A stretch of DNA of 64,000 bases, taken from assembly GCF_030389495.1 (NCBI RefSeq), contig NZ_CP127832.1, forward strand, positions 434,001 through 498,000, given 5' to 3'. Of the stretch, positions 3,579 to 53,935 are shown in pieces. The translations under genes were made by a program, and so were the position numbers. The DNA is from Ligilactobacillus cholophilus (lineage in GTDB: Bacteria; Bacillota; Bacilli; Lactobacillales; Lactobacillaceae). The notes under the pieces were generated by a model. That model searched no databases and was not told the origin of the DNA. It saw only the letters and a program-made list of their open reading frames with translations. How positions within the stretch are numbered: the stretch's first letter is position 1; each line of letters begins with the position of its first letter.

Positions 3579-3620
3579 AAAATATTGTGTTAATTCGTTA
3601 TAGGTGTGTTATTATAGTAT
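3579..3620 (+). promoter_or_regulatory. CGTTATAG motif 1 (small RNA A)
   Basis: Core at 3596-3603 within a block nearly identical to those at 3736-3775 and 3904-3945 (ACAAAATATTGTGTTAATT, core, then TGTTATTATA). It starts small-RNA cassette A. Confidence 0.6.
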
Positions 3621-3731
3621 TTGTTTCAAACATGTTTTACATTTAAAGTAATGGGCTAGATTACTTTAAGAGAGTTGATTACTCTTCTTGTTTTCGTTGG
3701 TCTTGGTTGTTCGTCAACTAAGGCTTTTTTT
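3604..3731 (+). ncRNA. Small RNA cassette A
   Basis: About 125 nt from the motif to a terminator, without an ORF that has a ribosome site. Elements in order: hairpin AAAGTAAT/ATTACTTT around 3646-3668, hairpin AAGAG/CTCTT with loop containing TTGATTA (about 3667-3685), and terminator CTTGGTTG/CAACTAAG (3702-3722) with a TTCG-type loop and seven T. Cassettes B and C share this order. Function unknown. Confidence 0.6.
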
Positions 3732-3735
3732 GTAC

Positions 3736-3775
3736 AAAATATTGTGTTAATTCGTTATATATATATGTTATTATA
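3736..3775 (+). promoter_or_regulatory. CGTTATAT motif 2 (small RNA B)
   Basis: Second copy of the promoter block, core 3753-3760 (last base T instead of G). Confidence 0.55.
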
Positions 3776-3898
3776 TAATTGTGTTCAAAATAACATAAAG
3801 GCTAGGTTTAGATATACCTACTTTAAGAGCGTGGATAACTCTTTTAATAAATATCTAATTGTTGCTTGTCTTGGTTGTTTATCAACTAAGGCTTTTTT
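3761..3898 (+). ncRNA. Small RNA cassette B
   Basis: Same architecture as cassette A: hairpin TAGGT/ACCTA near 3803-3821, hairpin AAGAG/CTCTT with loop CGTGGATAA (about 3827-3845), and the same terminator type (3870-3898). The segment AATAAATATCTAATTGTT near 3845-3863 is also found with small changes in the RNA at 4782. Confidence 0.6.
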
Positions 3899-3903
3899 AA
3901 TAC

Positions 3904-3945
3904 AAAATATGGTGTTAATTCGTTATAGGTATGTTATTATATAGT
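3904..3945 (+). promoter_or_regulatory. CGTTATAG motif 3 (small RNA C)
   Basis: Third copy of the promoter block, core 3921-3928. Confidence 0.6.
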
Positions 3946-4368
3946 TGTAAAGAAAAAGCCCTCAGACAAGGCTTATACAAGCATATGTTAGCGGTACTAA
4001 CTTTCAATGTCTGAGGGCTTTAACAAAAATTTTGTCGATAGGTGATACATGATAAATTGGTGATTAAGCAATTTATCAACTCCTGTCTGTATAAATTATC
4101 CTTGGTTAAGGACAATTATTATTATAACAAGATACATTGATAATACAACAGTATGTAATATTTTTTTCATGAAAATAATTGACAATATTCGTAAATTAGT
4201 GTTTAATATTATTTGTCGATAGGTGATACATTGACAGTCTGTATAAGTTGTAAGCTGATTACTTACACAAAGAGAGCTGGTTACTCTCAACTAAATAAGA
4301 GATGGTTACTTTTGTTTAGTAGTTTTTTCTTGTTTGTCTTGGTTGTTCATCAACTAAGGCTTTTTTTT
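3929..4368 (+). ncRNA. Structured RNA region C with three-way junction and tandem hairpins
   Basis: No ORF with a ribosome site lies on this strand. A perfect 14-bp stem (AAAGCCCTCAGACA 3955-3968 with TGTCTGAGGGCTTT 4008-4021) encloses GCTT/AAGC and GTTAG/CTAAC hairpins, a compact three-way junction. A 20-bp direct repeat TTTGTCGATAGGTGATACAT occurs at 4031-4050 and 4212-4231. Three consecutive hairpins follow (GTAAG/CTTAC, GAGAG/CTCTC, then a weaker one) with near-identical loops CTGATTA, CTGGTTA and ATGGTTA (4244-4318). The end is the third copy of the CTTGGTTG/CAACTAAG terminator (4338-4368). It may be one or several transcripts. Confidence 0.55.
4031..4050 (+). repeat. 20-bp direct repeat (partner at 4212-4231)
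   Basis: TTTGTCGATAGGTGATACAT occurs twice, each followed by a GTCTGTATAA-like segment. The core TTGTCGATA also appears in the rep leader near 6814-6822. Confidence 0.85.
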
Positions 4369-4963: not shown

Positions 4964-5092
4964 AAGTGTCCTCTATGTCGTAATAAAGTATAACGTTTTA
5001 CTCCAAATGTATAACATTTGTTATAGTAAAGTATAATGTTTGTCGTAATAAAGTGTACAGTTTGTTATAGTAAAGTGTACTGTTTGTCCTAC
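4964..5092 (+). repeat. Iteron cluster 1 (about 5 units of 22 bp)
   Basis: Directly repeated units of the form TATAACGTTTGTCGTAATAAAG with changes, spaced about 22 bp, one helical turn pair apart. Two units have GTACAGTTTG/GTACTGTTTG variants. Same motif as cluster 2 upstream of rep. Such iterons are binding sites of Rep_3 initiators. The cluster runs into the TTGACA of a promoter at 5093. Confidence 0.85.
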
Positions 5093-5121
5093 TTGACACC
5101 ATAAGTATTTATTGATATAGT
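5093..5121 (+). promoter_or_regulatory. Iteron-linked promoter of short RNA G
   Basis: TTGACA (5093-5098), 17 bases, TATAGT (5116-5121), directly abutting the last iteron, the same layout as at the rep promoter. Rep bound to the iterons would probably repress it. Confidence 0.7.
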
Positions 5122-5127
5122 TGTTAC

Positions 5128-5232
5128 AGTATCCATATACAACCAACCTAAACTCCAAATTTTTATTTTTAACCTTACAACACTACATTCATTCTTAGGA
5201 TAAGGATAGCCTTAAAGGGTTATCCTTTTTTT
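5128..5232 (+). ncRNA. Short RNA G (about 105 nt)
   Basis: From the iteron-linked promoter to a terminator (AAGGATA 5202-5208 with TATCCTT 5221-5227, seven T). No ORF with a ribosome site. Candidate copy-control or incompatibility RNA. Confidence 0.5.
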
Positions 5233-5326
5233 ATTTCAATTCTAAGCTCTTTCACAGCCTTATATGGACGTTTTAACCCTTTCTAGTGTAAATTATACTT
5301 ATATATCATTTAAGTACCCCAAAACA

Positions 5327-5339
5327 AGCTCTAAGAGCT
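5327..5339. repeat. AGCTCTAAGAGCT palindrome, copy 2
   Basis: Same palindrome as 4440-4452, followed by TTTAAAAGG as there. Confidence 0.5.
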
Positions 5340-5410
5340 TTTAAAAGGGTATATACATTTTATTTTAATGTTACCCAACATCTTTATTTTATACCATATC
5401 CATTTAAACC

Positions 5411-5423
5411 CCTCTAAGAGCTT
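5411..5423. repeat. CTCTAAGAG palindrome, copy 3
   Basis: CCTCTAAGAGCTT, shorter symmetrical core, followed by CATACAGCCATTTTAAT, a phrase also near 4388-4400. Confidence 0.45.
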
Positions 5424-5487
5424 CATACAGCCATTTTAATATGTTTTAATGTAATTATACTAAACGCCCTTAAAAGTGCTCAAAAAT

Positions 5488-5501
5488 AGCTCTTAAGAGC
5501 T
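5488..5501. repeat. AGCTCTTAAGAGCT palindrome, copy 4
   Basis: Perfect 14-bp palindrome of the same family. Confidence 0.5.
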
Positions 5502-6094
5502 AAATAAAGCACGTGGCGGGGCGGGGCATTTTCTTTTTATCTTTTCTGAATACTTGCAAGACCGCATTGATTCTCTTATCCATTGAGCAACCCTATATCT
5601 ATCTTAAATTGAGCAACAATACTAATATCAATACTAGATAATTGACCTCACTAAATATTAATACATCTATCTGAATTAATTAATTATTAATACTAAATAC
5701 TTGAACTAACTAGATTAATATTATCTATCTAAATACTTGTACCAATACTACTATCTTAAGTTGAAACAACAATACTACTAATTAATACTAACTGAAACAA
5801 CTAGACTATTATTACATCTATCTTAAGTTGAAAGAACTAGACTAGATATTAATACTATTCTTAAGTTGAAGAAAAGAAGAACAAAAAGAAAGAACTACAA
5901 TACTTGTACTTGTACAAGTGTTGGTTTGTCTTACTTATAAAAGTAAGTGCTTTGCTAAGCTTTCCAGAAAGCGTAATAACTGTACTAACTAATATTATCT
6001 ATCTAACTATTTACATCAATACTCTATTTTAATATCAATATTCTATCTTAATACTATTATTTTATACAATAAAAATTTAATTGATACGTATATA

Positions 6095-6166
6095 ACAGTT
6101 AAAAACTGTTATATACTGTTATTTTTCTGTTATATACTGTTATATACTGTTATAAACTGTTATTCA
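6095..6166 (+). repeat. CTGTTAT tandem repeats
   Basis: Six CTGTTAT words about 10-12 bp apart, mostly as ACTGTTATAT, after one inverted ATAACAG. Different from the 22-bp iterons. The 10-bp period places them on one face of the helix, as expected for an origin-binding or DNA-bending site. Confidence 0.75.
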
Positions 6167-6201
6167 TTTGAGCAATCCCTTGTGGCTCAAGGGCTAAGGG
6201 T

Positions 6202-6464
6202 CAATAAAGTATAACGTTTGTTACGTCTGCTATAACATTTGTCATAGTTATGTATAACGTTTGTCGTGTCTGCTATAACATTTGTCATGATAAAGTATAA
6301 CGTTTGTCGTGTCTGCTATAACATTTGTCATGATAAAGTATAACGTTTGTCGTAATAAAGTATAATGTTTGTCATAGTAAAGTATAACATTTGTCATTTA
6401 GGGAAAATTGTATACTTTTAAAATTATGTATAACGTTTGTCGTAATAAAGTATAATGTTTGTCT
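6202..6464 (+). repeat. Iteron cluster 2 (about 11 units of 21-22 bp)
   Basis: Units alternate between TATAACGTTTGTCGTGTCTGC and TATAACATTTGTCATGATAAAG types. Nine are contiguous to about 6400; two more (6428-6464) lie against the rep promoter. The arrangement (origin iterons plus operator iterons just before rep) is that of Rep_3 theta plasmids of Firmicutes, where Rep monomers start replication and Rep at the operator limits its own synthesis. Confidence 0.93.
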
Positions 6465-6491
6465 TGACATTTTAAAAATATGTGATATAAT
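6464..6491 (+). promoter_or_regulatory. rep promoter, overlapped by iterons
   Basis: TTGACA (6464-6469), 16 bases, TATAAT (6486-6491); the -35 box begins where the last iteron ends, consistent with Rep autorepression. Confidence 0.8.
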
Positions 6492-6558
6492 TTATATAGA
6501 GTTTGTTTTATTCAATTATAATAAATGTATCAAAATCCATATTAATTACTTTAAACTA

Positions 6559-6671
6559 TTACAAGGAGGGCAGTTGCTGAATACCTAACACGAATAAGAA
6601 ATAATAAAAACAAACTACAATTAAAAATTAAATAAACTTGTTTCTAGTTCAGTGTTAGGACTAGCTTTTTT
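6559..6671 (+). promoter_or_regulatory. rep leader: mini-ORF and attenuator candidate
   Basis: AAGGAGGG (6563-6570) precedes a possible TTG-CTG-AAT-ACC-TAA mini-ORF. A terminator follows: CTAGTTC (6644-6650) pairs with GGACTAG (6658-6664) plus seven T. CCTAACAC (6584-6591) is exactly complementary to GTGTTAGG (6652-6659) in the terminator, so the two pairings exclude each other. This could make rep expression depend on leader translation or on an RNA that binds the leader. Confidence 0.5.
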
Positions 6672-6728
6672 TATACCCAAAATTAGGCAATTATTAAGAA
6701 AATATTAAGGCTCAATCAAAAAATGAGC

Positions 6729-6813
6729 TAAAGTTTATTATTATAAATGAGGGGTAATTTTTTATTACTCTAATCAAATTTTAATAATAAAAAAACAAAG
6801 TTTATTATTATGA
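6729..6813 (+). promoter_or_regulatory. Two copies of early motif AAAGTTTATTATTAT
   Basis: At about 6731 and 6798. Together with copies at 7963 and 8041 they form a family before rep and the first early gene, each with a possible TATTAT -10 box and often a hairpin just upstream (GCTCA/TGAGC at about 6711-6728). Probably early promoters or an operator family. Confidence 0.45.
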
Positions 6814-6850
6814 TTGTCGATAAAAAATAAATAGTATGGAGTGATTTAAC

Positions 6851-7900
6851 ATGGACTTGACAAAAATTAAAGTGAAGAATGATACAATCAATAATTTTAG
6901 CAAAATGACTAGAGGGGAAATTAATCTAAGCGTTGCCTTATATGCTTACATTAATGACAATCTAGCGAAAGCTAAGAAAACTAATAAAGACAAGGTTAGT
7001 TTTGAAGTAACTAATTTTGAACTAAAGAAAGTTGCTAAATACAATGGTAGGGGAAAAGCTACTGATAGGTTAATTACCCTTGAAGATAGTCTTAAGGGTA
7101 TAACTTTAACTACTACTAATAATAATAATATCAAAGTAGAACTTGACCCTAGTAGCTTTGTTATGCTCGAAGATGAATACAAGCTATACAATGATAAAGA
7201 TTTTACAATTATTAACTTAGAAATCTTATTACAATTATCAACTAAGTTAGAAAAGATTCTATACATATTAATGTTACAACATCGAAAGAGCACAACAATT
7301 CAGATGAATTTTAACACTCTCCAAGCTAAAGTTGGTACTAGTGTACCTAATGGAGTCGTAAAACAACGCCTAAATAAAGCTATCGACAGCTTGAATAATA
7401 CTTTCAACGGGCTATGCAATGAGATCACATGGAAATACGAAAACAAGACAGGACACCAAAAAATAAAAGGCTTTATCTTGACATACAACAAGAAAGCTCT
7501 TAAGAGTAACAATGTAGAAAAAAGAAACTTGGGTACTACAAAAACAAGTACAGTTAAAAGTAATAATGTAGATAATGCAGAAATTGCAAAATTAAAAGCA
7601 CAAATTAAAAAGTTAGAACAAGAATTAAAAGCTAAAGATGAAGAAATTAATAATTTAAAACAAGAACAAGAAACAGAAGAACAAAAACAAGAACAAAATA
7701 ATAAAGCTGGTATCATTGTTAGCACAACGCCTACTTATTGTACTAAGAGTAATGATTATGATATTGAGGACTTTTACCGTGAAAATAATAATAATATGAA
7801 TTATATGGACAACTTGAAACAAAAAGCTCAAGACGTTTCAGAGCAGCGAAACCTAAATAATACAGAGCTAGATAATTGGTTAGCAAATGTACTAGATTAA
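6851..7900 (+). CDS. rep: Rep_3-family replication initiator
   Basis: 349 residues. The N-terminal 210 residues show the two winged-helix layout of Rep_3 initiators (MTRGEINLSVALYAYIND; FTIINLEILLQLSTKLEKILYILMLQHRKSTT; FNTLQAKVGTSV), which bind iterons and open the origin. Residues about 240-280 form a coiled coil rich in Lys, Glu and Gln, probably for oligomerisation or helicase contacts; the last 60 residues are less conserved. ATG follows GGAG (6838-6841). Iterons lie directly upstream, as in plasmids, so the initiator appears to be the phage's own replication protein in place of the usual DnaC/DnaD-type module. Its ribosome site is complementary to a predicted RNA at 11500-11523. Confidence 0.88.
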   Translation: MDLTKIKVKNDTINNFSKMTRGEINLSVALYAYINDNLAKAKKTNKDKVSFEVTNFELKKVAKYNGRGKATDRLITLEDSLKGITLTTTNNNNIKVELDPSSFVMLEDEYKLYNDKDFTIINLEILLQLSTKLEKILYILMLQHRKSTTIQMNFNTLQAKVGTSVPNGVVKQRLNKAIDSLNNTFNGLCNEITWKYENKTGHQKIKGFILTYNKKALKSNNVEKRNLGTTKTSTVKSNNVDNAEIAKLKAQIKKLEQELKAKDEEINNLKQEQETEEQKQEQNNKAGIIVSTTPTYCTKSNDYDIEDFYRENNNNMNYMDNLKQKAQDVSEQRNLNNTELDNWLANVLD

Positions 7901-8115
7901 TGAAAACCTTGATATTACAACAACTTAATAAAATCTTAAGAAAAAATCGCCGTTTTTTGGCGTTAAGTTTATTATTATATATGTAAGGGTTTTCAATCTG
8001 GATATTTATAATTATTAAAACTTTCTAATAATGAAAATGCTAAACTTTATTATTATATATGTAAGGTTAAAAACCTAAGCAAAAAAACAAAACAAACAAA
8101 TAGGAGTGATTTTTT
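7901..8115 (+). promoter_or_regulatory. Intergenic with two early-motif copies
   Basis: Contains a CGCC/GGCG hairpin (7949-7963) then AAGTTTATTATTATATATG at 7965-7983, and a second AACTTTATTATTATATATG at 8043-8061; both are followed by TAAGG. They probably drive the early genes from 8116 onward. Confidence 0.5.
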
Positions 8116-8877
8116 ATGTTATTAATTTTAAATGAAAATGCAAAAATGGAAGATGTAAAAATGATAAATGGTAAGATTGATAAGGGAGTTTTGAAAAAGG
8201 TAAGCAGAAGAGTAAAAAATAATAATGCAAAGCTACCAATTAAATTAGTTGCTAAAATGTATAAACCAACTTTGGCAATCGAATTAAACAAAGATACATA
8301 CTTAACCCAAGAACAAATTACTAGTAATAAATTCTACATTAAAAAGATTAGTAACTACATGTATGCAACTAATCAAGGATATGTATATAACATTAATAGA
8401 AAACGTAAAAATTATGGTAAAGCTAATGCTTTTGGTTATAGGGTAATTTCTACTAAAAATAAAACTACTACAACCATGAATAATCTTTTATACAATGCAC
8501 TGGTTGAACCAGTAGGAGAAAACGTTGTACACCATAAAGACCATAATAAGAGTAACAATGCACTCAGCAATTTAGCATTAATGACCCGTGATGATAATTT
8601 AAGGGAAAGATTCGTGAATAACCCTTCATTAGGTAAAGAAATGTTTTCAAAGATTTGTAAAAACTACATTTATGATAAAAATACAAAGACTCTATTTAAA
8701 AATAAAACTACTGCTGCTAAATATGTAAATGGTTTAGTTGCTGGAGTTACCGCTTGCTTAGATGGAAGGTTTAAAACATACAAAGGTATGGAATTAATCC
8801 AATTAACAGATGAACAACAAAAAGAAGCAGAAAAACATTTTATTTTTAACAAAAACCAAAAAATGATTAATATCTAA
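8116..8877 (+). CDS. HNH homing-type endonuclease
   Basis: 253 residues. The segment VVHHKDHNKSNNALSNLALM (about 135-156) is an HNH_3-type nuclease motif: metal-binding HH, then the DHN and N of the ββα-Me fold. C-terminal NKTTAAKYVNGLVAGVTACL resembles the helix-turn-helix NUMOD DNA-binding repeats of free-standing homing endonucleases. Its ribosome site AGGAGTGAT belongs to the early-gene type. It may act as a selfish nuclease or in phage DNA metabolism. No intron or intein is visible next to it. Confidence 0.85.
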   Translation: MLLILNENAKMEDVKMINGKIDKGVLKKVSRRVKNNNAKLPIKLVAKMYKPTLAIELNKDTYLTQEQITSNKFYIKKISNYMYATNQGYVYNINRKRKNYGKANAFGYRVISTKNKTTTTMNNLLYNALVEPVGENVVHHKDHNKSNNALSNLALMTRDDNLRERFVNNPSLGKEMFSKICKNYIYDKNTKTLFKNKTTAAKYVNGLVAGVTACLDGRFKTYKGMELIQLTDEQQKEAEKHFIFNKNQKMINI

Positions 8878-9372: not shown

Positions 9373-9828
9373 ATGGTAATGGTCGACGAAAAAACACTAA
9401 ACAGCATTTTAAATAGTAAGAATTTTCAAACTCAAAAACATAAACTTGCAAATATTCAATTAATCTCAGATAATGACGCTCAAAATAAATTATTATGGCA
9501 ATTCCTTGAAGTCCGTTGTAAAAATATGAATAAGAATGAATTTGAAAGAGCTTGGGGAGATAACGGGAAATATGAAAATGGGAAAAAGAACAATAAATAT
9601 CTATGCTGGTTGATGACGCATAGTGTCAAAGATATTACAAAACAAAACAAAACCAATCAAAGTAAAAAAGAAGAGGTTGAAGGCTATCTAAAAAATAGTA
9701 CAGTTTCAACTTTTACTATTGATGATGATTCAAATAATAATAACCAAAATGACAAACTAAAAGAATTGGTATTACTCAATTTGGAACAGCTTTTTCATGG
9801 TTCAACAAGAAAAAAAGGAATTTATTAA
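9373..9828 (+). CDS. Unknown early phage protein
   Basis: 151 residues, ribosome site AAGGAGTAAT. The N-terminal 90 residues look globular (LLWQFLEVRCKNMNKNEFERAWGDNG); an Asn/Asp-rich linker (DDDSNNNNQND) leads to a helix that ends in an A7 tract at 9810-9816. The next gene overlaps in the +1 frame. Removing one A from the tract would join the two ORFs into one protein of about 295 residues, so they may be one gene split by a homopolymer change, or a coupled pair. The location before the terminase genes is where late regulators often lie. Confidence 0.7.
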   Translation: MVMVDEKTLNSILNSKNFQTQKHKLANIQLISDNDAQNKLLWQFLEVRCKNMNKNEFERAWGDNGKYENGKKNNKYLCWLMTHSVKDITKQNKTNQSKKEEVEGYLKNSTVSTFTIDDDSNNNNQNDKLKELVLLNLEQLFHGSTRKKGIY

Positions 9829-10267
9829 AGTATTATTTACTAGTGGAAGTAAAGAAGCTCAACTTTATTTAGCAGAACATACCAAAACACCTATAAATAG
9901 TTACATTGGAGTTATTAGTAAATATTGTGATAAGAATAGAAAGCGTTTTAATACTGTATTAAACAAGGAACTTTCAAATAAGGATAAACAAGTACTTAGT
10001 TTTATTAATCAATTCCTAACTATTGAAAACCAAGAAAATGTTTCTTTATTTCTTAAACAGGGTCAAGAATCCGAATTAATCTCAAAACACAAAGCATTGT
10101 TTGAAGATTTGATAGGTTGTTGCGGAGATATTCCAAATACTTTCTATATCACTCATCAAAAAGCACTATTACAAAATTGGGAAAAGATTGAATATCAAAC
10201 GGAGAAAAGTTATTTAATTGACTATTTAGAACAAAAACAAAAGCAATTACAAAAGAAATTAAATTAA
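9797..10267 (+). CDS. Unknown early phage protein, overlaps previous gene
   Basis: 156 residues read from ATG 9797, inside the end of the preceding ORF and without a convincing ribosome site, so translation is probably coupled or by frameshift. The sequence is mainly helical (FIKVLFTSGSKEAQLYLAEHTKTPINSYIGVISKYC) and ends in a Lys/Gln-rich helix. No family recognised. As a helical protein just before the late region it is a candidate activator of the CGTTATAG promoters, on position only. Confidence 0.65.
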   Translation: MVQQEKKEFIKVLFTSGSKEAQLYLAEHTKTPINSYIGVISKYCDKNRKRFNTVLNKELSNKDKQVLSFINQFLTIENQENVSLFLKQGQESELISKHKALFEDLIGCCGDIPNTFYITHQKALLQNWEKIEYQTEKSYLIDYLEQKQKQLQKKLN

Positions 10268-10326
10268 AATAACAATTATTAGTCCTACTTAGTTAGGACT
10301 TTTAGTTGTATAAGGAGGTTATTAAT

Positions 10327-10818
10327 ATGGCTAAGTATAGAGAATGTATCAAACCTACTTGCCACGAACTTATCCAAATCCCTAATAAGTATTGTGAAAA
10401 ACATAGACAAGAAATAGAACAACAAAGGCTAGAGTATAATAAGATTAAACAACAACAAAGATATAAAATGTACAATAAGCATAATAGAGATAAGCAAGCT
10501 AATGCGTTCTATCAATCTAAGGAATGGAAAGCCACAAGGAACTATGTTATTAATCGAGACAATTATGTGTGTTGTGTATGTGGCGAACCATTGAACAATA
10601 CAAAAATAATAGATCATATTACGCCACGAAGAGCCGATAAAACAAAAGAATTAGATACAGACAATCTCTGGTGTTTATGTTATAAATGCCACAATATTAA
10701 GACAAGTATTGAGGAGCAAATTATAAATAGTCCTAATGGCAAGAACAAGATAAAACATATAAATAAAAAGAACTGGAAAAAATACATATTAGAAAGGTTA
10801 AACAAAAGGAGTAATTAA
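10327..10818 (+). CDS. HNH endonuclease of the packaging region
   Basis: 163 residues from ATG 10327 after AAGGAGG (an in-frame ATG at 10306 lies before the ribosome site). Zinc-binding CVCGEP and LCYKCHN pairs bracket IIDHITPRR and the LDTDNLWCL segment, the classic HNH arrangement with the catalytic His in DHI. The N-terminus has another Cys cluster (CIKPTCHELIQIPNKYCEKH), probably a second zinc site. Such HNH proteins lie beside the terminase genes in many cos phages and assist DNA cleavage during packaging. Confidence 0.9.
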   Translation: MAKYRECIKPTCHELIQIPNKYCEKHRQEIEQQRLEYNKIKQQQRYKMYNKHNRDKQANAFYQSKEWKATRNYVINRDNYVCCVCGEPLNNTKIIDHITPRRADKTKELDTDNLWCLCYKCHNIKTSIEEQIINSPNGKNKIKHINKKNWKKYILERLNKRSN

Positions 10819-10820
10819 CT

Positions 10821-11120
10821 ATGATAGCAATAACAATAGTATTAGTAGCAGTAATAATAGGATATATCATAGGAAAACATAAGGAACAAAAACATTATAC
10901 ATTATATACATATTGGTATTATTACACAGTAAACGAAGTAACAGTAATTAGAGAACATATTAATACATTATCTAAAGCTCAAGTAATTAGAAATGATATT
11001 AATCTTAAGGAGTATTATGTAATAAAAGAATATGATGAGTATTTAGAATTTAAGGGACTTAAAGTAATTCCAGCAAACAAGATAATACTTGAGGACAAAC
11101 AAGAATGTACCATTAAATAG
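10821..11120 (+). CDS. Small membrane-anchored unknown protein
   Basis: 99 residues; ATG 3 bases after the HNH stop, with AAGGAGTAATT inside the preceding gene end. One N-terminal membrane helix (MIAITIVLVAVIIGYIIG) with a cytoplasmic helical and β-rich domain. No family recognised. Confidence 0.7.
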   Translation: MIAITIVLVAVIIGYIIGKHKEQKHYTLYTYWYYYTVNEVTVIREHINTLSKAQVIRNDINLKEYYVIKEYDEYLEFKGLKVIPANKIILEDKQECTIK

Positions 11121-11147
11121 TATTAATAATAAGGAGTAGTTGATAGT

Positions 11148-11360
11148 ATGGCAAAGAGTATAAGTAATAGAATTTATTTAAATGTTAATGCAGTATCTTA
11201 TATAGACTTATGTAAGGACAAAGTATATCTAAACAATGGAGATTATTTTTTAACAACAAAGGAATCAATTAATCGTATTATTGATAGATTAGAGAAACCA
11301 TATCACAATAAAGATACTAATGTTATCTATGGAAATAATAAAGTATTGCAAGAGTATTAG
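11148..11360 (+). CDS. Small unknown phage protein
   Basis: 70 residues, ribosome site AAGGAGTAG. Strand-rich N-terminus (RIYLNVNAVSYIDLCKDKVYLNNGDYFLTTKESINRIIDRL) that may resemble a LytTR-like or small β-fold with a C-terminal helix. Last coding gene before the non-coding packaging region; another candidate late regulator by position only. Confidence 0.65.
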   Translation: MAKSISNRIYLNVNAVSYIDLCKDKVYLNNGDYFLTTKESINRIIDRLEKPYHNKDTNVIYGNNKVLQEY

Positions 11361-11466
11361 TAATAAGGAGTAATACATATATAGTAATACAAGTATAGCA
11401 ATACATAAGCAAAGCAATGCAATGCAAGGCAATGGCAAGAGTGGAGTGCGCAAGCACGCAACGACC

Positions 11467-11500
11467 ATGCAAAGGTATATCGTTATAGTTGTGTAAGACA
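11467..11500 (+). promoter_or_regulatory. CGTTATAG motif 5 (antisense RNA)
   Basis: Core 11481-11488, with GTGTAAGACAA after it. It is not followed by a gene but by the rep-complementary sequence. Confidence 0.55.
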
Positions 11501-11713
11501 AATCACTCCATATTATTTATTTTAAAGTAAAAAATTCTTTTATATCCCCCCGCTATTGAGCTGAAAGAAAAGCTCACCAAAAAAAAGAACTTTCTTGCGT
11601 GGAGCATGCAAAAACCTTTTATAACGGGTGGGGGGTTATTTTAAACCATATGTAAACCATACAAAACATAGAAAAGCCTATATAAAGCCGTTTCTGGCTA
11701 TAAGGCTTTTTTA
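11489..11713 (+). ncRNA. Candidate trans-acting antisense RNA against rep
   Basis: Predicted transcript from motif 5 to the terminator at 11671-11713. Bases 11500-11523 can pair with all 24 bases 6824-6847 of the rep leader, with one G-U, covering the GGAG ribosome site (6838-6841) up to 4 bases before the ATG. No ORF with a ribosome site. If made late in infection it would block synthesis of the initiator. The 3' end is uncertain: a TGAGCT/AGCTCA hairpin near 11559-11578 could be a processing point. Confidence 0.55.
11671..11713 (+). terminator. Terminator before terS
   Basis: AAAAGCCTATA (11672-11682) pairs with TATAAGGCTTTT (11699-11710), enclosing AGCC/GGCT, followed by T. Confidence 0.8.
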
Positions 11714-11724
11714 TTTTGCACTAA

Positions 11725-11760
11725 AAATACAACTAAAAATCGTTATAGATGTGAAACAAA
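11725..11760 (+). promoter_or_regulatory. CGTTATAG motif 6 (terminase operon)
   Basis: Core 11741-11748, about 28 bases after a terminator and 67 before the terS start. Confidence 0.7.
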
Positions 11761-11814
11761 CTAAAATACAAACGCACTAATAACAAGCGTTAAACAGAAA
11801 AGGGGTGCATTAAA

Positions 11815-12339: not shown

Positions 12340-14243
12340 TGAGAAAAATTGACTTATCCCAAAAAGATGCAGATTTACTCACAGAATATTATACGGAACT
12401 TGATAACGGTTGCTATGATTCCATTATTGAAGAATACCGAGACCCAGCGACACGTTATTGTTTTAGGGTATTAAATGAAGAAGTTTTAACATGTAACTCC
12501 ATTAAGTTGCAAGCATTCAGACATATTCAAGATTTAAGAAGAATTACCGAAGATGATAATTTTAATTATTATTATGATTTAGGGGAAACTAAAAAATTGT
12601 ATAAGTTCACAACTATGTTAGTTGACCCCAGTAATTCGAAACCTATGCAATTAATGGACTGGCAACTAAATATCTTATTTCAGGCGAATTGCTGGAAAGA
12701 TAATAATACAAATGAAAGAAGATACACTAGAGCAATCGTGAGCATGGCTAGAACTAATGGCAAGAGTATGCTTGCAACAGTACAGCTATTATATGATTAC
12801 ATTTTTAATTGTGCAGGTTTAACAAATCAAGAACTATTGTTAGCTTTACCTAGTGCGAGTCAAGTAGAAAAAGTATGGCTCTATTTGATTAGTTATTTTA
12901 AGGCTTTAGAAATTCATGACTGGTTCACAGGTTGGGAAGAGACGGACGCCGTAGAGGCTCAAAGTGAAAAAGTTATAGCAAGAAATACTAATAATAGAAT
13001 TTTGAAGAGACCTTTCTTGAGTAGACGTTTTGACGGTAACCATTTTAGTACTTGTGTACTTGATGAAGTCGCCGATAGTGAAAACCAAGCCGTAATTAGT
13101 GAAAGTATTGGGAAAATAACCTCTGGAATGGTTCAAGCTAAAAATCCTATGGTGTTTACTATATCAACGGCTTATCCTAGTAGTAATTGTGATTTTTATA
13201 AACAGCAAAAAGCAATGTTTAGGAATATGGAACAGGATTATAAGAGAATTTCCGAAGATGTGTTGTGCATTGTATACCAACAAGACAACCAAGAAGAGGT
13301 TTTAAATGATGAGCTTTGGATTAAGTCTAATCCATTACTTGAATTAGATAGCTTAAGACCTAGAATGCTAAAACAAATGCACGCAGATTTAGAAGATATG
13401 CGGGTTAAAGGCAAGGAATACGAGTTCATTAATAAAAATATGAATTTATGGCTTAATCAAAATGTTGATACCTATTTAGACTTAAAAACTATTGAAAGTG
13501 GTGTTATTCCAGATCGTCCAATAGACATACAGGGTAAAAAAGTTTATATAGGGTGTGATTTAAGTAACTTTAATGATGATACAAGTATTGCTTTTATATA
13601 TCCATATGTAGATAGCTTAGGGAACAATAAGTTTTATATAGAGGAACATTCATGGATTCCAACGGCAAGAGCTCAACGAAGAATAGACTTAAAGGAACAG
13701 CAGGACAATATCCCGTATAGACATCTTGAAGAAAAAGGCTTTTGCACAATCGCCACAAACCGTTTTGGATATATCAACTATGATGAAGTATTTGAATGGC
13801 TTATTAATTACATTAATGATAATGATTTAGATGTTGATAGTATCACTTATGATAAATGGCGTAGTGATAAATTTATAAAATTACTGGAAAGTAACACGAG
13901 CTTTAGATTAATACCATTACAACAAACCGTAGTGGGCTTGAACGATGCTACAAAAGACTTTCAGCAATGTATAACAGAGGGAAATATTAAATTCCTTGAT
14001 GACGATATTATAAAAGTTGCTCTTTCCAATGCTATTCTATATCGAAGAGAGGGACTCATAAAAATAGATAAGAACAAAGAAACTGAAAAGATTGATTGTG
14101 CTGATGCTATTATAGACGCTTTTTATCGTGCAAGGCTACATTTTGATGATATCGAGGATATAGAAAAACAATCAAAACATCCATTTGAGAACATGACAAA
14201 TAAACAAATTAAGGACATATTCAATAAAGATTATACATTTTAG
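12339..14243 (+). CDS. terL: Terminase large subunit
   Basis: 634 residues from ATG 12339. The ATPase domain has MQLMDWQLNILF, Walker A variant ARTNGKS (about 130-136), motor ALPSASQVEKVW and Walker B-like CVLDEVADSE. The nuclease domain has VYIGCDLSNFNDDTSIAF with catalytic Asp and, near the end, DCADAIIDAF. It belongs to the Terminase_1 type, cuts phage concatemers and pumps DNA into proheads at the portal. Confidence 0.96.
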   Translation: MRKIDLSQKDADLLTEYYTELDNGCYDSIIEEYRDPATRYCFRVLNEEVLTCNSIKLQAFRHIQDLRRITEDDNFNYYYDLGETKKLYKFTTMLVDPSNSKPMQLMDWQLNILFQANCWKDNNTNERRYTRAIVSMARTNGKSMLATVQLLYDYIFNCAGLTNQELLLALPSASQVEKVWLYLISYFKALEIHDWFTGWEETDAVEAQSEKVIARNTNNRILKRPFLSRRFDGNHFSTCVLDEVADSENQAVISESIGKITSGMVQAKNPMVFTISTAYPSSNCDFYKQQKAMFRNMEQDYKRISEDVLCIVYQQDNQEEVLNDELWIKSNPLLELDSLRPRMLKQMHADLEDMRVKGKEYEFINKNMNLWLNQNVDTYLDLKTIESGVIPDRPIDIQGKKVYIGCDLSNFNDDTSIAFIYPYVDSLGNNKFYIEEHSWIPTARAQRRIDLKEQQDNIPYRHLEEKGFCTIATNRFGYINYDEVFEWLINYINDNDLDVDSITYDKWRSDKFIKLLESNTSFRLIPLQQTVVGLNDATKDFQQCITEGNIKFLDDDIIKVALSNAILYRREGLIKIDKNKETEKIDCADAIIDAFYRARLHFDDIEDIEKQSKHPFENMTNKQIKDIFNKDYTF

Positions 14244-15729: not shown

Positions 15730-17520
15730 ATGGCAACAGCAACTAAAAAAGTTAAGGTAAAATCATCTAATTTACGTGCTTACATTGATGAGGATACTAA
15801 TACTCACGTTATCACGGGTAAAGCAATCGTATTTAATTCAATGAGTGAATACATGGGGTTTTATGAGATTATCGAACCAAGTGCTTTAGATAATGTTGAT
15901 TTTTCTAATACATTATTACTTTATAACCATAAATTTGGGGACGTGTTAGCACGTGTTGATTCTGATACTCTTGATATTGAGATTAAAGAAGATGGCGTTT
16001 ACTTTACTGCAACTCTTGCAGATACAACACTTGCTGAAAATGTTTACCAAGATATTAAATCTAGAAATTTGAAGGGTTGTTCATTTCAATTTGTCTGTGG
16101 TGAAGATGAATGGACGACAACAGAAGATGGCGAACAATTAAGAATTATTAAAGAAATCGATGCAATTTCTGAATTATCCTTAACTCCCATCCCAGCATAT
16201 AGTGAAACTAATTGCAGTGCTATTCGTAGCCTTGAGAAGGAGGTTAATAACATGGAAGAATCAAAGAAGGAACAACCTAAGGTAGAACCAGTGGAAGAAC
16301 CAAAGAAGGAAGATAAACCAGTGGAACAACCTAAGGTAGAACCTAAGAAGGAAGATAAAAAAGTAGCCAAAGATTTAAAAGTTAAGATTGATAATGATGA
16401 TTTGATTAAAGAAATTGAATCATTAAAAGAAATGATTGCCCAAGCACAACAAGCAAAGGCAGAACCTAAAGAAGAAGACAAGCGGGAACTTGATGAAGAA
16501 CCAGAACCCGAAGAAAAAACAAAAGAAAACGTTATAGAACCAAAGGCAGAACCAGAAGAAGATAAAGATACTCCAAATGGTTCAAAAAAACAACAAGAAG
16601 GAGGGGCTACACAAATGGCTCAAGTAATTAAAGCACAAGAATCAAAAGAAGATAAAGAAGTGCGCAATTTTGAAAACTGGTTAAAAGGTGATGCACGTGA
16701 TTTGACATCCGGTCAAACAAGTACAAATTCAGATGCAGTATTACCATCTCAAGTACTTTCATTATTGAAACAACCTAATGACCCTTCACAATTAGCATCA
16801 TATGTTAACCGCATTGCTGTTCAAGCTCCAGCGGGTAAATTACCAGTTCTAGGTAAAGCAACTGCAAGACTTGCAACAACTCAAGAATTAAAAGAAAATC
16901 CAAACATTGCAGAGGCACAAATTAAGAAAGTTTCATATGACTTAGGTACATACCGTGGACAATTACCAGTATCCAATGAAATGGTTTCGGACTATCCTAA
17001 CATTACATCTATCTTATCCGGTTATGTAAATGAAGTTAAAGCACAAACAGAACAAGCTAAAATTGGTGCAGTGTTACAAACTGCAACAGCTAAAACAGCA
17101 GCTTCATTAGACGACATTAAAGGCTTATACAACGGTTTATTAAACTATGGTTCCGACCGTAAATTCGTTGTAAGTGCTTCAATGTTCAATGAATTAGATA
17201 CTATGAAAGATGCTGAAGGTCGTTACTTGTTAAAAGAAGATATTGCATCAGAAACAGGACGCAGTTTATTCGGTGCTGAATTAATTATCGTACCTGATGA
17301 AATTCTTGGAAATGCTGGCGATAAGAAAATGTTTGTAGGTTCTTTAAAAGCATTTGTTACAGAAGTAGTAAAAGATGAAATCTCAATGAAATGGGAAGAA
17401 AACGTTTACTTTGAATCTGTATTAGGCGTTGCAATTCGTATGGACGTTGTGGCAGGAGATACAGACGCTGGTTACTTTGTTACTTACAATGCAGGAACAC
17501 CAGCAGCAAAATCAAAATAA
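15730..17520 (+). CDS. Fused HK97-type prohead protease, scaffold-like linker and major capsid protein
   Basis: 596 residues from ATG 15730, which is 7 bases after AAAGGAGG. Residues 1-170 form an HK97-type prohead protease (ITGKAIVFNSMS, LLLYNHKFGDVLARV with the catalytic His, LKGCSFQF with the Ser). Residues about 175-290 are a low-complexity linker of Glu, Pro and Lys (repeated EQPKVEP/EPKKEDK). From about 296 a HK97-fold capsid protein follows (GQTSTNSDAVLPSQVLSLLKQ, LPVLGKATARLATTQELKE, VYFESVLGVAIRMDV). Two internal in-frame ATGs have ideal ribosome sites: 16252 (AAGGAGG) and 16615 (AAGGAGGGG), and a CGTTATAG lies at 16530. Separate capsid and scaffold products are thus likely besides the fusion. 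Confidence 0.92.
   Translation: MATATKKVKVKSSNLRAYIDEDTNTHVITGKAIVFNSMSEYMGFYEIIEPSALDNVDFSNTLLLYNHKFGDVLARVDSDTLDIEIKEDGVYFTATLADTTLAENVYQDIKSRNLKGCSFQFVCGEDEWTTTEDGEQLRIIKEIDAISELSLTPIPAYSETNCSAIRSLEKEVNNMEESKKEQPKVEPVEEPKKEDKPVEQPKVEPKKEDKKVAKDLKVKIDNDDLIKEIESLKEMIAQAQQAKAEPKEEDKRELDEEPEPEEKTKENVIEPKAEPEEDKDTPNGSKKQQEGGATQMAQVIKAQESKEDKEVRNFENWLKGDARDLTSGQTSTNSDAVLPSQVLSLLKQPNDPSQLASYVNRIAVQAPAGKLPVLGKATARLATTQELKENPNIAEAQIKKVSYDLGTYRGQLPVSNEMVSDYPNITSILSGYVNEVKAQTEQAKIGAVLQTATAKTAASLDDIKGLYNGLLNYGSDRKFVVSASMFNELDTMKDAEGRYLLKEDIASETGRSLFGAELIIVPDEILGNAGDKKMFVGSLKAFVTEVVKDEISMKWEENVYFESVLGVAIRMDVVAGDTDAGYFVTYNAGTPAAKSK
16240..16254 (+). promoter_or_regulatory. Internal ribosome site and start for linker-capsid product
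   Basis: AAGGAGG followed by ATG 16252, in frame with the fused gene. Would yield a scaffold-capsid protein lacking the protease. Confidence 0.6.
16597..16617 (+). promoter_or_regulatory. Internal ribosome site and start of capsid protein
   Basis: AAGGAGGGG followed after 9 bases by ATG 16615. The product (about 301 residues) is the normal size for an HK97-fold capsid protein, so the major capsid protein is probably made from here. Confidence 0.75.
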
Positions 17521-33204: not shown

Positions 33205-33236
33205 AAATGCAAAGAGAAATCGTTATAGTAGTATAA
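33205..33236 (+). promoter_or_regulatory. CGTTATAG motif 14 (RNA after endolysin)
   Basis: Core 33221-33228, preceded by AAAATGCAAAGAGAAAT. No gene follows before a terminator at 33266-33294. Confidence 0.65.
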
Positions 33237-33294
33237 TCACTCCTTGTAAATAACTTAGGTACTAAAGAGCTATCCATATTGGGTAGCTTTTTTT
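33230..33294 (+). ncRNA. Candidate short RNA after the endolysin gene
   Basis: About 65 nt between motif 14 and a terminator. It carries AATCACTCCTTGT (33235-33247), complementary to early-type ribosome sites: 10 bases to 8102-8111 (HNH) and, through ACAAGGAG, 10 bases to the rep leader at 6559-6568. AATCACTCC is shared with the antisense RNA at 11489. Confidence 0.4.
33266..33294 (+). terminator. Terminator after motif 14
   Basis: AGCTATCC (33268-33275) pairs with GGGTAGCT (33281-33288, one G-U), then seven T. Confidence 0.85.
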
Positions 33295-33341
33295 GTTGCC
33301 TTATGCTATTATAATGTTATCCTATATAATAATTTTTCTCT

Positions 33342-33370
33342 TGAGTGGGTTTAATACCCGCTCTTTTTTT
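33342..33370 (+). terminator. Second terminator before the integrase
   Basis: GAGTGGGT pairs with ACCCGCTC (one G-U), then seven T. It insulates int from late transcription. Confidence 0.85.
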
Positions 33371-33400
33371 ATGCTATTATATCTTTATGGAGGTTGTTTT

Positions 33401-34522
33401 ATGGCAATTATTAAAAAAGATAACCTCTTTATAGTTCGTATTAGTTACAAGAAAGGCGGTAAATACCATACTAAGTATAAAAGTGGTTTCACTACTAGAG
33501 AGCAAGCCGAAGAATACGCACAATATTTTAAAAAATATTTAAGAGAACCTGTACAGGACAAAAATAATAAAGAAACAAAAGTAACACTATATCATTATTT
33601 TTACGAATGGTATTCAACATTTATTGAACCTAAAATAACATATAATACTAAAAGGCACTATAAAACTGTATTAAAAATAATCAAGGTCTATTTTAAAAAT
33701 AAGAAACTTTGTGAAGTAACTAGAACAGATTACCAAAAATTTATAAATTGGTATGGTAGCAATCATGTTAAAGCTACAGTTAATAAAATGCACTACCATA
33801 TTAAAGCAATGGTTAATAATGCTATTTTAGATGGAGTACTAACCAAAGACTTTACCCAAAGTATTAATATTGTATATAGTGATAAGAATAAGAAAAGTGT
33901 TGACTATCTTAATTTAAAGGAAATAAAAACTATTATTAAGTATCTTTTTAATAGTATTGATACTAATAAGAGAACTAATAATACTTATATCTTTCTTTTA
34001 ACGGGTTTTCTTACTGGTATGAGATTAGGGGAAATACAAGCCCTTACATGGAATGATGTTAATTTTGATACATGTAAAATAGATATTAATAAAAGTTGGG
34101 ATTGTTATAACTATAAATTTAAAAAAACTAAGACTAAAGCAAGCAATAGAGTAATTGTTATACCTAATAATCTAGCAAAGATACTTAAACATAAAAAAGA
34201 AACTGATAAACCTAATAGCCGGAATTTAATATTCTATAATGGTGGCGCTCGATGTGTTCCAGAGAGTTCAAACATAAATAGAGCTCTAAGGAGACTTTTT
34301 AAACGTTTAAATATTAATAGAAAAAACTATCATTTCCATAGTGTTAGACATTCTTTTGTTGCTTTGACATATAGTCTTGGTATAGATATGTACGCAATCT
34401 CAAGACACTTAGGGCACGCTAACATTACTATCACTATGAATACTTATTCCTACTTGTTAGAAGAATTTAAAGAGGAACAAGAACACAATCTTGTAAATAG
34501 CCTTACAAAAATTTACAAATAA
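33401..34522 (+). CDS. int: Phage integrase (tyrosine recombinase)
   Basis: 373 residues from ATG 33401, after TGGAGG; the longer ORF starts inside the preceding terminator region. N-terminal arm-binding domain (FIVRISYKKGGKYHTKYKSGFTT), core-binding domain (KRHYKTVLKIIKVYFKNKKLCEV), and catalytic domain with Arg in TGMRLGEIQALTW, HSVRHSF, LGHANITITMNTYSY with the nucleophile Tyr. It recombines attP with the end of clpB. It is placed right beside attR, codirectional with and downstream of the lysis gene, and shielded by two terminators; in most temperate siphophages int faces the other way. Confidence 0.96.
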   Translation: MAIIKKDNLFIVRISYKKGGKYHTKYKSGFTTREQAEEYAQYFKKYLREPVQDKNNKETKVTLYHYFYEWYSTFIEPKITYNTKRHYKTVLKIIKVYFKNKKLCEVTRTDYQKFINWYGSNHVKATVNKMHYHIKAMVNNAILDGVLTKDFTQSINIVYSDKNKKSVDYLNLKEIKTIIKYLFNSIDTNKRTNNTYIFLLTGFLTGMRLGEIQALTWNDVNFDTCKIDINKSWDCYNYKFKKTKTKASNRVIVIPNNLAKILKHKKETDKPNSRNLIFYNGGARCVPESSNINRALRRLFKRLNINRKNYHFHSVRHSFVALTYSLGIDMYAISRHLGHANITITMNTYSYLLEEFKEEQEHNLVNSLTKIYK

Positions 34523-34560
34523 TCTTTTATAAAAATTGATATTGGGGTGTTTTTGAGTGT

Positions 34561-34685
34561 CAGCATATGGTGCTCGTCCATTGCAACGGTTTATTACAAC
34601 TAACATTGAGACTCCATTGGCTAAGGAGATTATTGCGGGTAAAGTTCAGCCTAATTCAAAGGTTATGATTTCATTAGATGATGAT
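34561..34685 (+). repeat. attR, right copy of 125-bp attachment repeat
   Basis: Identical to 421-545; 38 bases after the int stop. Confidence 0.95.
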
Positions 34686-34721
34686 CAACATTTAACTTTT
34701 AAGGATTTAAAAGCAGAATAA
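34561..34721 (+). pseudogene. clpB: Displaced original 3' end of clpB
   Basis: Continues past the repeat with QHLTFKDLKAE and a stop at 34719-34721, the native ClpB C-terminus now cut off from its gene. It has no start signal. It shows what the host protein looked like before phage integration. Confidence 0.93.
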
Positions 34722-53726: not shown

Positions 53727-53886
53727 CGTGCATCTCTCCTTTGAGTTGATTTTCTCCTTCTATATTTTCATTGTAACATTTAATTATAATAATTTAATTA
53801 AAATGCTTTTATTAGCAAAAATATTTTGTATAATAAGAGCTATGTGACAATTTACTATTTTATTTATACAAATCAATTATATATTG
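53727..53886 (+). promoter_or_regulatory. Promoter region of the queuosine-salvage operon
   Basis: TATAAT at 53829-53834 after TTTG; the -35 is weak. The transcript would start about 53841 and lead into the riboswitch. Confidence 0.5.
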
Positions 53887-53935
53887 GACTGGTTCGAGAA
53901 CTTCCCAGAATAAAAAACCAAGTATCTCTAAAGGA
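53887..53935 (+). promoter_or_regulatory. preQ1-I riboswitch
   Basis: CTGG (53889-53892) pairs with CCAG (53905-53908) around a TTCGAGAACTTC loop; the A-rich tail AATAAAAAACCAAG (53909-53922) can form the pseudoknot (CTT 53901-53903 with AAG 53920-53922). The order GGTTC, CTTCCC and TAAAAAAC is the preQ1 class I consensus. AAAGGAGG follows within ten bases, suggesting control of translation by the queuosine precursor preQ1. Confidence 0.88.

Follow-up and report, generated by a model that had tools for sequence, protein, structure and literature searches.

A predicted cos-spanning RNA complementary to the start of the replication initiator gene in a Ligilactobacillus cholophilus prophage

Why does a segment within a prophage match, over 24 nucleotides, the ribosome binding site of a gene located 4.7 kb away on the same strand? 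The prophage lies in the window analyzed here, a stretch of 64,000 nt (G000:C1:434001-498000) from the complete 1.59-Mb genome of Ligilactobacillus cholophilus. As read from the sequence, its left border is the 3' end of a clp-like gene, whose ORF ends at 578, and its right border a repeat of this gene end near 34560; the integrase occupies 33293-34522, and the genes are ordered rep, HNH, small genes, HNH, terS, terL, portal. The insertion site is the 3' end of the clp-like gene (400-578), the gene end being repeated at the right border (34555-34720). A PreQ1 riboswitch (RF00522) is found beyond the prophage, at 53883-53927.

The nearest relatives are the prophages of Ligilactobacillus aviarius DSM 20655 (G006; L015/L016, L056) and L. 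araffinosus DSM 20653 (G005; L027/L057), both of the same genus, and the IMG/VR contig L028. The G006 phage adjoins the same clp-like gene. At 9373-10267 of the window, a conserved early protein is broken into two overlapping frames at an A run; the same protein is a single 297-aa frame in G006 and is intact also in G005 and L028. Slippage, phase variation, decay or a read error could account for the split.

The rep gene and its complementary segment

The gene at 6851-7900 (+ strand) encodes a product of 349 aa. Its model (3-row alignment, pLDDT 64.5) matches the plasmid initiator Pi (Foldseek 2nra, E 4.1e-7) and superimposes on RepE over ~190 residues (Z ~12, rmsd ~6), with the tandem winged helices of Rep_3/RepE-Pi initiators. 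Because of this pLDDT and rmsd and a query TM of 0.34, the fold match is of moderate quality. No Pfam or NCBIfam entry matches the product, which profile libraries leave unnamed at E 0.001, and no resembling sequence was found in phage and plasmid records. Iteron-like direct repeats with 22-nt spacing (family D1) precede the gene on the same strand (6311-6463); given these repeats and the RepE/Pi-type model, the name rep appears well founded. A consensus sigma-70 promoter (TTGACA-16-TATAAT, 12/12 matches) follows at 6464-6491 (+). Further upstream, GGGGCGGGGCATTTT (5510-5540), read backwards, is similar to the C-rich portion of the G006 cos-like site.

The segment 11500-11523 on the + strand (AAATCACTCCATATTATTTATTTT) pairs with 6824-6847 at all 24 positions, through 23 Watson-Crick pairs and one G-U (11513/6834), and the flanking base is unpaired at both ends. 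Its target, the rep translation start region (6824-6850, +), contains GGAG at 6838-6841, and the pairing ends 3 nt 5' of the ATG at 6851. An earlier note on this DNA had described both the pairing with a single G-U and the cover of the Shine-Dalgarno (SD), and both descriptions are borne out. A pattern search of the window allowing up to 3 mismatches returned these two places only (expected 0), and a blastn search of the full 1.59-Mb genome with 11400-11800 gave the query itself and the rep start, nothing else. The pair is also the longest inverted repeat in the prophage (at most 1 mismatch, arms more than 200 nt apart), the runner-up measuring 20 nt. The duplex is predicted at -29.9 kcal/mol, compared with -22.8 for the next + strand site. 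Among 1361 sampled + strand windows (equal length, step 25), none pairs better with the rep start than the predicted RNA carrying the segment (RNA1, described below), which also ranks first in a finer scan.

The same note held that such a match is not expected by chance. None of 60 dinucleotide shuffles reached 24 nt, which agrees with that statement; however, one reached 23 and one 22, so that a match somewhere in 34 kb is only moderately unlikely. Chance would mean an anti-SD-like stretch like any other, since any ACTCC-bearing sequence fits SDs. The two shuffles of 60 with a 22-23 nt inverted repeat speak for it, as do minus-strand windows, which attain similar energies because antisense SDs are among them (stronger on the rep start in 1/681, 0/800, 3/417 and 3/405 cases for the window, G006, L028 and G005). 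Against it, 15 of the 24 pairs are formed outside the GGAGTGATT core, and the sampled + strand contains nothing better on rep. Moreover, by argument rather than calculation, a location on the SD and directly behind a promoter-like motif makes chance much less likely. Altogether, we regard a chance origin as very improbable.

A predicted RNA through the putative cos site

The earlier note placed the segment right after a motif in a gene-free region. Indeed, the motif CGTTATAG stands at 11481-11488 (+), after ATGCAAAG, and ends 11 nt before the segment; the inferred cos site, however, lies in this region too. The sole ORF listed between 11361 and 11814, a 70-aa minus-strand frame (11289-11501), was dismissed as a gene.

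CGTTATAG occurs in 14 copies, all on the + strand, versus 1.2 expected. Nine of them precede a start codon, eight at 37-41 nt and the copy before terS (11741-11748, +) at 74 nt; by eye, gene-leading copies are often directly 3' of a T-run or terminator. The copies at 3596, 3921, 11481 and 33221 lead into non-coding stretches, and the copy at 16530 is intragenic. The shorter CGTTATA is found 19 times on the + strand and 8 times on the minus strand of the window, six of these 8 being in or near the iteron region (4995-6435); the corresponding numbers in G006 are 14 and 2. This is the pattern that a single-element late promoter would be expected to produce.

CGTTATAG is a single element without a clear -35, and it also precedes ORFs in L115, a distant prophage from a different genus (at 12616 and 15991). 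The 297-aa protein of G006 is at most a tentative candidate for a late regulator of the sigma-factor type: it has one weak NCBIfam sigma match (E 0.037) and its model is useless (pLDDT 41). Its distant relatives match only phrog_23087, a PHROG without assigned function (E 0.0035 and 0.00014), Pfam gives nothing telling for them, and no sequence resembling the 297-aa protein was found in phage records. A non-coding unit is also present behind the late motif (window 3596-4360, L015 3162-3640, L027 3174-3615, L028 4150-4585). By eye, it consists of an AGCCC...GGGCT hairpin, then tandem small hairpins with a common loop (CTGATTA/CTGGTTA in the window and G006, CTAATCA in G005 and L028) and finally a terminator-like hairpin. 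The motif unit is present three times in the window (3596, 3753, 3921). Protein binding could be the role of this tandem-hairpin unit.

The RNA start at 11489 given in the earlier note was a guess, and motif spacing points to ~11495. RNA1 is therefore predicted at 11495-11713 (+), about 219 nt from CGTTATAG to a hairpin at 11672-11713. Its predicted fold (-53.2 kcal/mol) leaves the 5' end free. The mean unpaired probability of the segment is 0.74, reaching 0.9-1.0 over AAATCACTCC, with the AU-rich half only half unpaired. In this model, RNA1 thus displays the exposed seed typical of trans-encoded base-pairing sRNAs. The 3' hairpin (11672-11713, +) is nearly identical in the three relatives. 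Like the one at 33264-33294, it is predicted to fold like an intrinsic terminator, with hairpin and T-run; a simple terminator scan does not list it, and the 33264 hairpin falls outside the coverage of that scan.

The rep leader (6498-6850) may itself affect the pairing. In its minimum free energy fold, 6536-6560 (+) pairs with 6830-6855, over its own SD; this cis pairing ranks 8 among + strand sites and is suggestive only. With it, the net gain of RNA1 may fall from about -24 to -12.7 kcal/mol. In addition, a terminator-like hairpin of the leader (6644-6664) competes with a CCTAACAC/GTGTTAGG pairing, and a tiny frame preceded by an SD is present (6574-6588). The hairpin and tiny frame suggest a possible attenuation of rep besides RNA1.

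The central stem of RNA1 (about 11546-11635) contains a C-run followed by a G-run. A C-run (at least 4) and a G-run were found upstream of terS in 16 of the 17 other TerS loci that include this stretch, L070 being without the C-run. We take this element to be the cos site by analogy. In phage records, the RNA1 region matches nothing beyond 30-35 nt. The segment could act at the DNA level, as part of cos or of a terminase-binding site, or be a relic of an inverted duplication; the flanking CGTTATAG copies would then be terminase sites and the pairing with rep incidental. The cos-like element flanked by CGTTATAG at 11481 and 11741 speaks for this explanation. It does not, however, fit the 12 further CGTTATAG copies found elsewhere than at cos, 8 of which precede start codons, and it leaves unexplained the location on the SD, a second copy of the segment's seed at 33236 and the situation in the relatives. 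We consider it improbable.

Early and late starts in the prophage and its relatives

The second copy belongs to a predicted RNA2 (33235-33294, +), with a 5' AATCACTCCTTG seed and a terminator-like hairpin. RNA2 has the ATGCAAAG...ATCGTTATAGT promoter context in common with RNA1, its CGTTATAG being at 33221-33228 (+), and its expected 5' end carries the same anti-SD seed, AATCACTCC. Searching 397 genomes of the family for CGTTATAG, then 4-20 nt, then AATCACTCC gave 2 matches, both in this prophage, and 5 for the reversed control. AATCACTCC occurs 19 times on both strands of the whole genome, versus 5 for its reversed control. In viral_contigs, the pattern CGTTATAGN{5,25}AATCACTCC returned 27 loci, none with more than 3 copies of CGTTATAG, which were taken as chance. 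RNA2 fits rep less well than 3% of windows and is ordinary among windows (2-6%); its best single start is that of a late gene. Host targets of RNA2 gave no signal (40 sites at up to 3 mismatches versus 36 for the reversed control).

After rep, the next-best start for RNA1 is that of the HNH gene, 79% of 24 nt being complementary in its start region (8089-8116, +), tied with that of terL, a late gene. Early and late starts were compared, early being defined as rep to HNH, with gene sets called mechanically and one-sided tests; the RNA segments were picked after the anti-SD had been noticed. Mean duplex energies for early and late starts were -14.3 versus -9.0 for RNA1 (7 and 21 starts; p 0.007) and -12.8 versus -10.2 for RNA2 (7, 21; p 0.015). 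For the corresponding RNAs of the relatives, they were -16.7 versus -11.3 in G006 (8, 22; p 0.010), -15.6 versus -11.6 in L028 (7, 11; p 0.028) and -15.8 versus -12.4 in G005 (11, 10; p 0.10). An early preference in predicted pairing is thus seen in three of the four phages. The 16S tail showed no early/late difference in any phage (p 0.88 in the window; 0.40, 0.36 and 0.47 in the relatives), which again argues against chance.

Window sampling was performed with sets hand-picked from the mechanical ones (early 7, 8, 6 and 10; late 18, 9, 7 and 7 for the window, G006, L028 and G005). A stronger early-minus-late difference was found in 1/1361, 0/1599, 0/833 and 2/810 + strand windows, and in 1/681, 1/800, 3/417 and 2/405 minus-strand windows, in the same order. 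The SDs themselves differ: in the window, GGAGT precedes 5 of 7 early starts versus 1 of 21 late ones, and 14 of the 21 late starts have GGAGG or GGGGG. The SD of both rep and HNH is GGAGTGATT, which lacks one G of the canonical GGAGGTGATT, and the anti-SD of the late RNAs, AATCACTCC, is the 16S tail minus one C. Early SDs of the relatives are more mixed. A cos-spanning late RNA might, quite tentatively, act as an off-switch of early translation, silencing early messages and sparing late ones by mimicking the anti-SD of the ribosome.

In each of the three relatives, two CGTTATAA motifs stand to the left of cos, and CATAAT(A/T)AATCACTCCTTTCTTATA stands to its right, just before the same hairpin. 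The nearest CGTTATAA is 163-176 nt upstream of the anti-SD and the second at 206-218. The window has no anti-SD at the homologous spot; its own lies left of cos, so the anti-SDs are not one homologous element. The conservation check proposed in the earlier note therefore has a divided outcome: the 24-nt match is not conserved, but the same RNA of the three relatives carries another rep-complementary segment. AATCACTCC is predicted to be unpaired in the window, G005 and L028, whereas 3 of its 9 bases are partly paired in G006. By eye, the complement of the relatives' anti-SD resembles an SD plus ATG; a minus-strand gene was rejected, as its frame, antisense through cos, has only 23 codons in G006 and G005. 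It stops at codon 3 in L028 and has no start codon in the window.

Sampled + strand windows are rarely stronger on their own rep start than the cos RNA (0/1599 in G006, 0/833 in L028, 1/810 in G005), which ranks 1, 2 and 3, respectively, in the finer + strand scan. The relatives' RNAs nevertheless fit other early starts better than their own rep; that of G006 pairs more strongly with the starts of an early protein (8784) and an HNH gene. Thus, the relatives support an RNA against early genes more than one against rep. The G006 RNA gives -20.7 with the window rep and -20.6 with its own, and the G005 RNA -20.6 with the G006 rep and -17.9 with its own; as the RNAs are not best with their own rep, this pattern does not indicate coevolution. 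The G005 rep is named by position only. It shows 27% identity to the window rep over 176 aa (E 0.004), and no alignment with the G006 rep was obtained, so that about three kinds of rep start are represented. The RNAs of the three relatives are near-copies and therefore do not count as independent.

The feature was not found in the other relatives compared. The TerS search gave 23 loci, 5 of which are the same three phages; the other 18 have no ATCACTCC within 450 nt before the terS match (77 nt only for L064). Six further loci of the genus (L008-L013, ~1.5 kb on each side) have no ATCACTCC on either strand; L009 and L060 are the same phage. L115, L116 and L117 hold distant relatives of the early protein. 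In L115, where the putative rep is named from its location alone, the cos-terS stretch pairs poorly with the start of that gene; L116 and L117 have no anti-SD at that place, and L058 is likewise without the feature.

The pairing might also operate in cis. The rep operon transcript would continue past 11360 as far as the 11713 hairpin, and its 3' UTR would pair with its own SD 4.7 kb upstream. Such read-through is possible in the window: the simple scan, which also misses the 11672 hairpin, lists no + strand terminator at 10300-11672, and the fold of 11355-11480 agrees. The 3' UTR of icaR in Staphylococcus aureus offers a precedent, as far as the excerpt of that source goes (PMC3868564). However, the early transcript should not reach the anti-SD in G006 and G005, where a terminator-like hairpin with a T-run (-13 kcal/mol) immediately precedes the motif pair; L028 has none. 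Moreover, RNA2 has its own motif and lies 26 kb away from rep, and the anti-SD of the window begins where the CGTTATAG transcript should begin. We judge cis control, the main rival reading, to be rather unlikely.

Our preferred reading, held with moderate confidence, is that RNA1 is a trans-encoded phage antisense RNA from a late-type promoter, repressing rep and perhaps early translation more widely. RNA1 would be transcribed from CGTTATAG through cos to the terminator before terS, and its free 5' end would form a 24-nt pairing with the SD region of the rep mRNA. Ribosome binding would be blocked, perhaps with RNase III cleavage, so that at the onset of late transcription initiator synthesis would drop while DNA is packaged. 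RNA2 and the RNAs of the three relatives would have a wider role, lowering early genes, many with GGAGT SDs, more than late ones. The complementarity, motif, terminator-like hairpin, exposed seed, recurrence and early bias are features of the sequence, from which we infer transcription, timing and repression. The earlier note's proposal that a late RNA stops initiator synthesis is thus partly supported, in silico, by the initiator fold, the late-promoter-like motif, the hairpin, the predicted unpaired end, RNA2 and the three relatives, although the motif is the sole indication of timing.

Comparison with known systems

The early-to-late switches known in phages operate mainly at the level of transcription. 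If true, a late RNA that stops the initiator, and perhaps much of early translation, would give the phage a simple means of passing from DNA copying to packaging. The switch RNA would then be made from the packaging site itself, and plasmid-style antisense copy control would be joined to a temperate phage.

CopA of R1, RNA II of pMV158 and Inc of ColIb-P9 are plasmid countertranscribed RNAs that limit initiator synthesis and are transcribed opposite the rep leader. RNA1 resembles this class in being complementary to the rep SD. It differs in that RNA1 (11.5 kb) and rep (6.85 kb) are both on the + strand, RNA1 being trans-encoded and apparently late-linked. The c4 RNA of P1/P7 is encoded adjoining and upstream of its target within the same transcript, whereas RNA1 lies 4.7 kb downstream of rep.

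According to the excerpt of a phage RNA review, c4 pairs around the ribosome binding site of the antirepressor mRNA and blocks its translation, with an immunity function (PMC12197685). RNA1 would likewise pair where ribosomes bind a phage mRNA, but its target is the replication initiator and its late-type promoter is far downstream. Lambda OOP and P22 sar, small antisense RNAs controlling phage development, are described in the same excerpt as antisense to their own target locus (PMC12197685), unlike RNA1, whose locus lies on the same strand at a distance of 4.7 kb. Lambda PreS, another RNA of that excerpt, is a trans-encoded phage sRNA acting on a replication function, as RNA1 would, but its target is host dnaN and it depends on Hfq (PMC12197685). 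VpdS is mentioned there as a further trans sRNA (PMC12197685).

Outside phages, the parts of two other sources used here describe related pairings. In S. aureus, the 3' UTR of icaR carries a distant same-strand anti-SD that pairs with the SD region at the 5' end, forming an RNase III substrate (PMC3868564); this pairing takes place within one host-gene mRNA, whereas RNA1 is read as a trans-acting phage RNA. The ArrA antisense RNA lowers production of the replication initiator DnaA in B. subtilis (PMC12112137); unlike RNA1, it is chromosomal and antisense at the dnaA 5' UTR itself. Among the matches listed in open-access PMC (titles and abstract starts), no phage RNA against its own initiator was described, which is no proof of absence. 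If it is made, RNA1 would differ from the known systems in being a trans-encoded RNA from the same strand, transcribed from a late-type promoter through cos and directed against the phage's own initiator.
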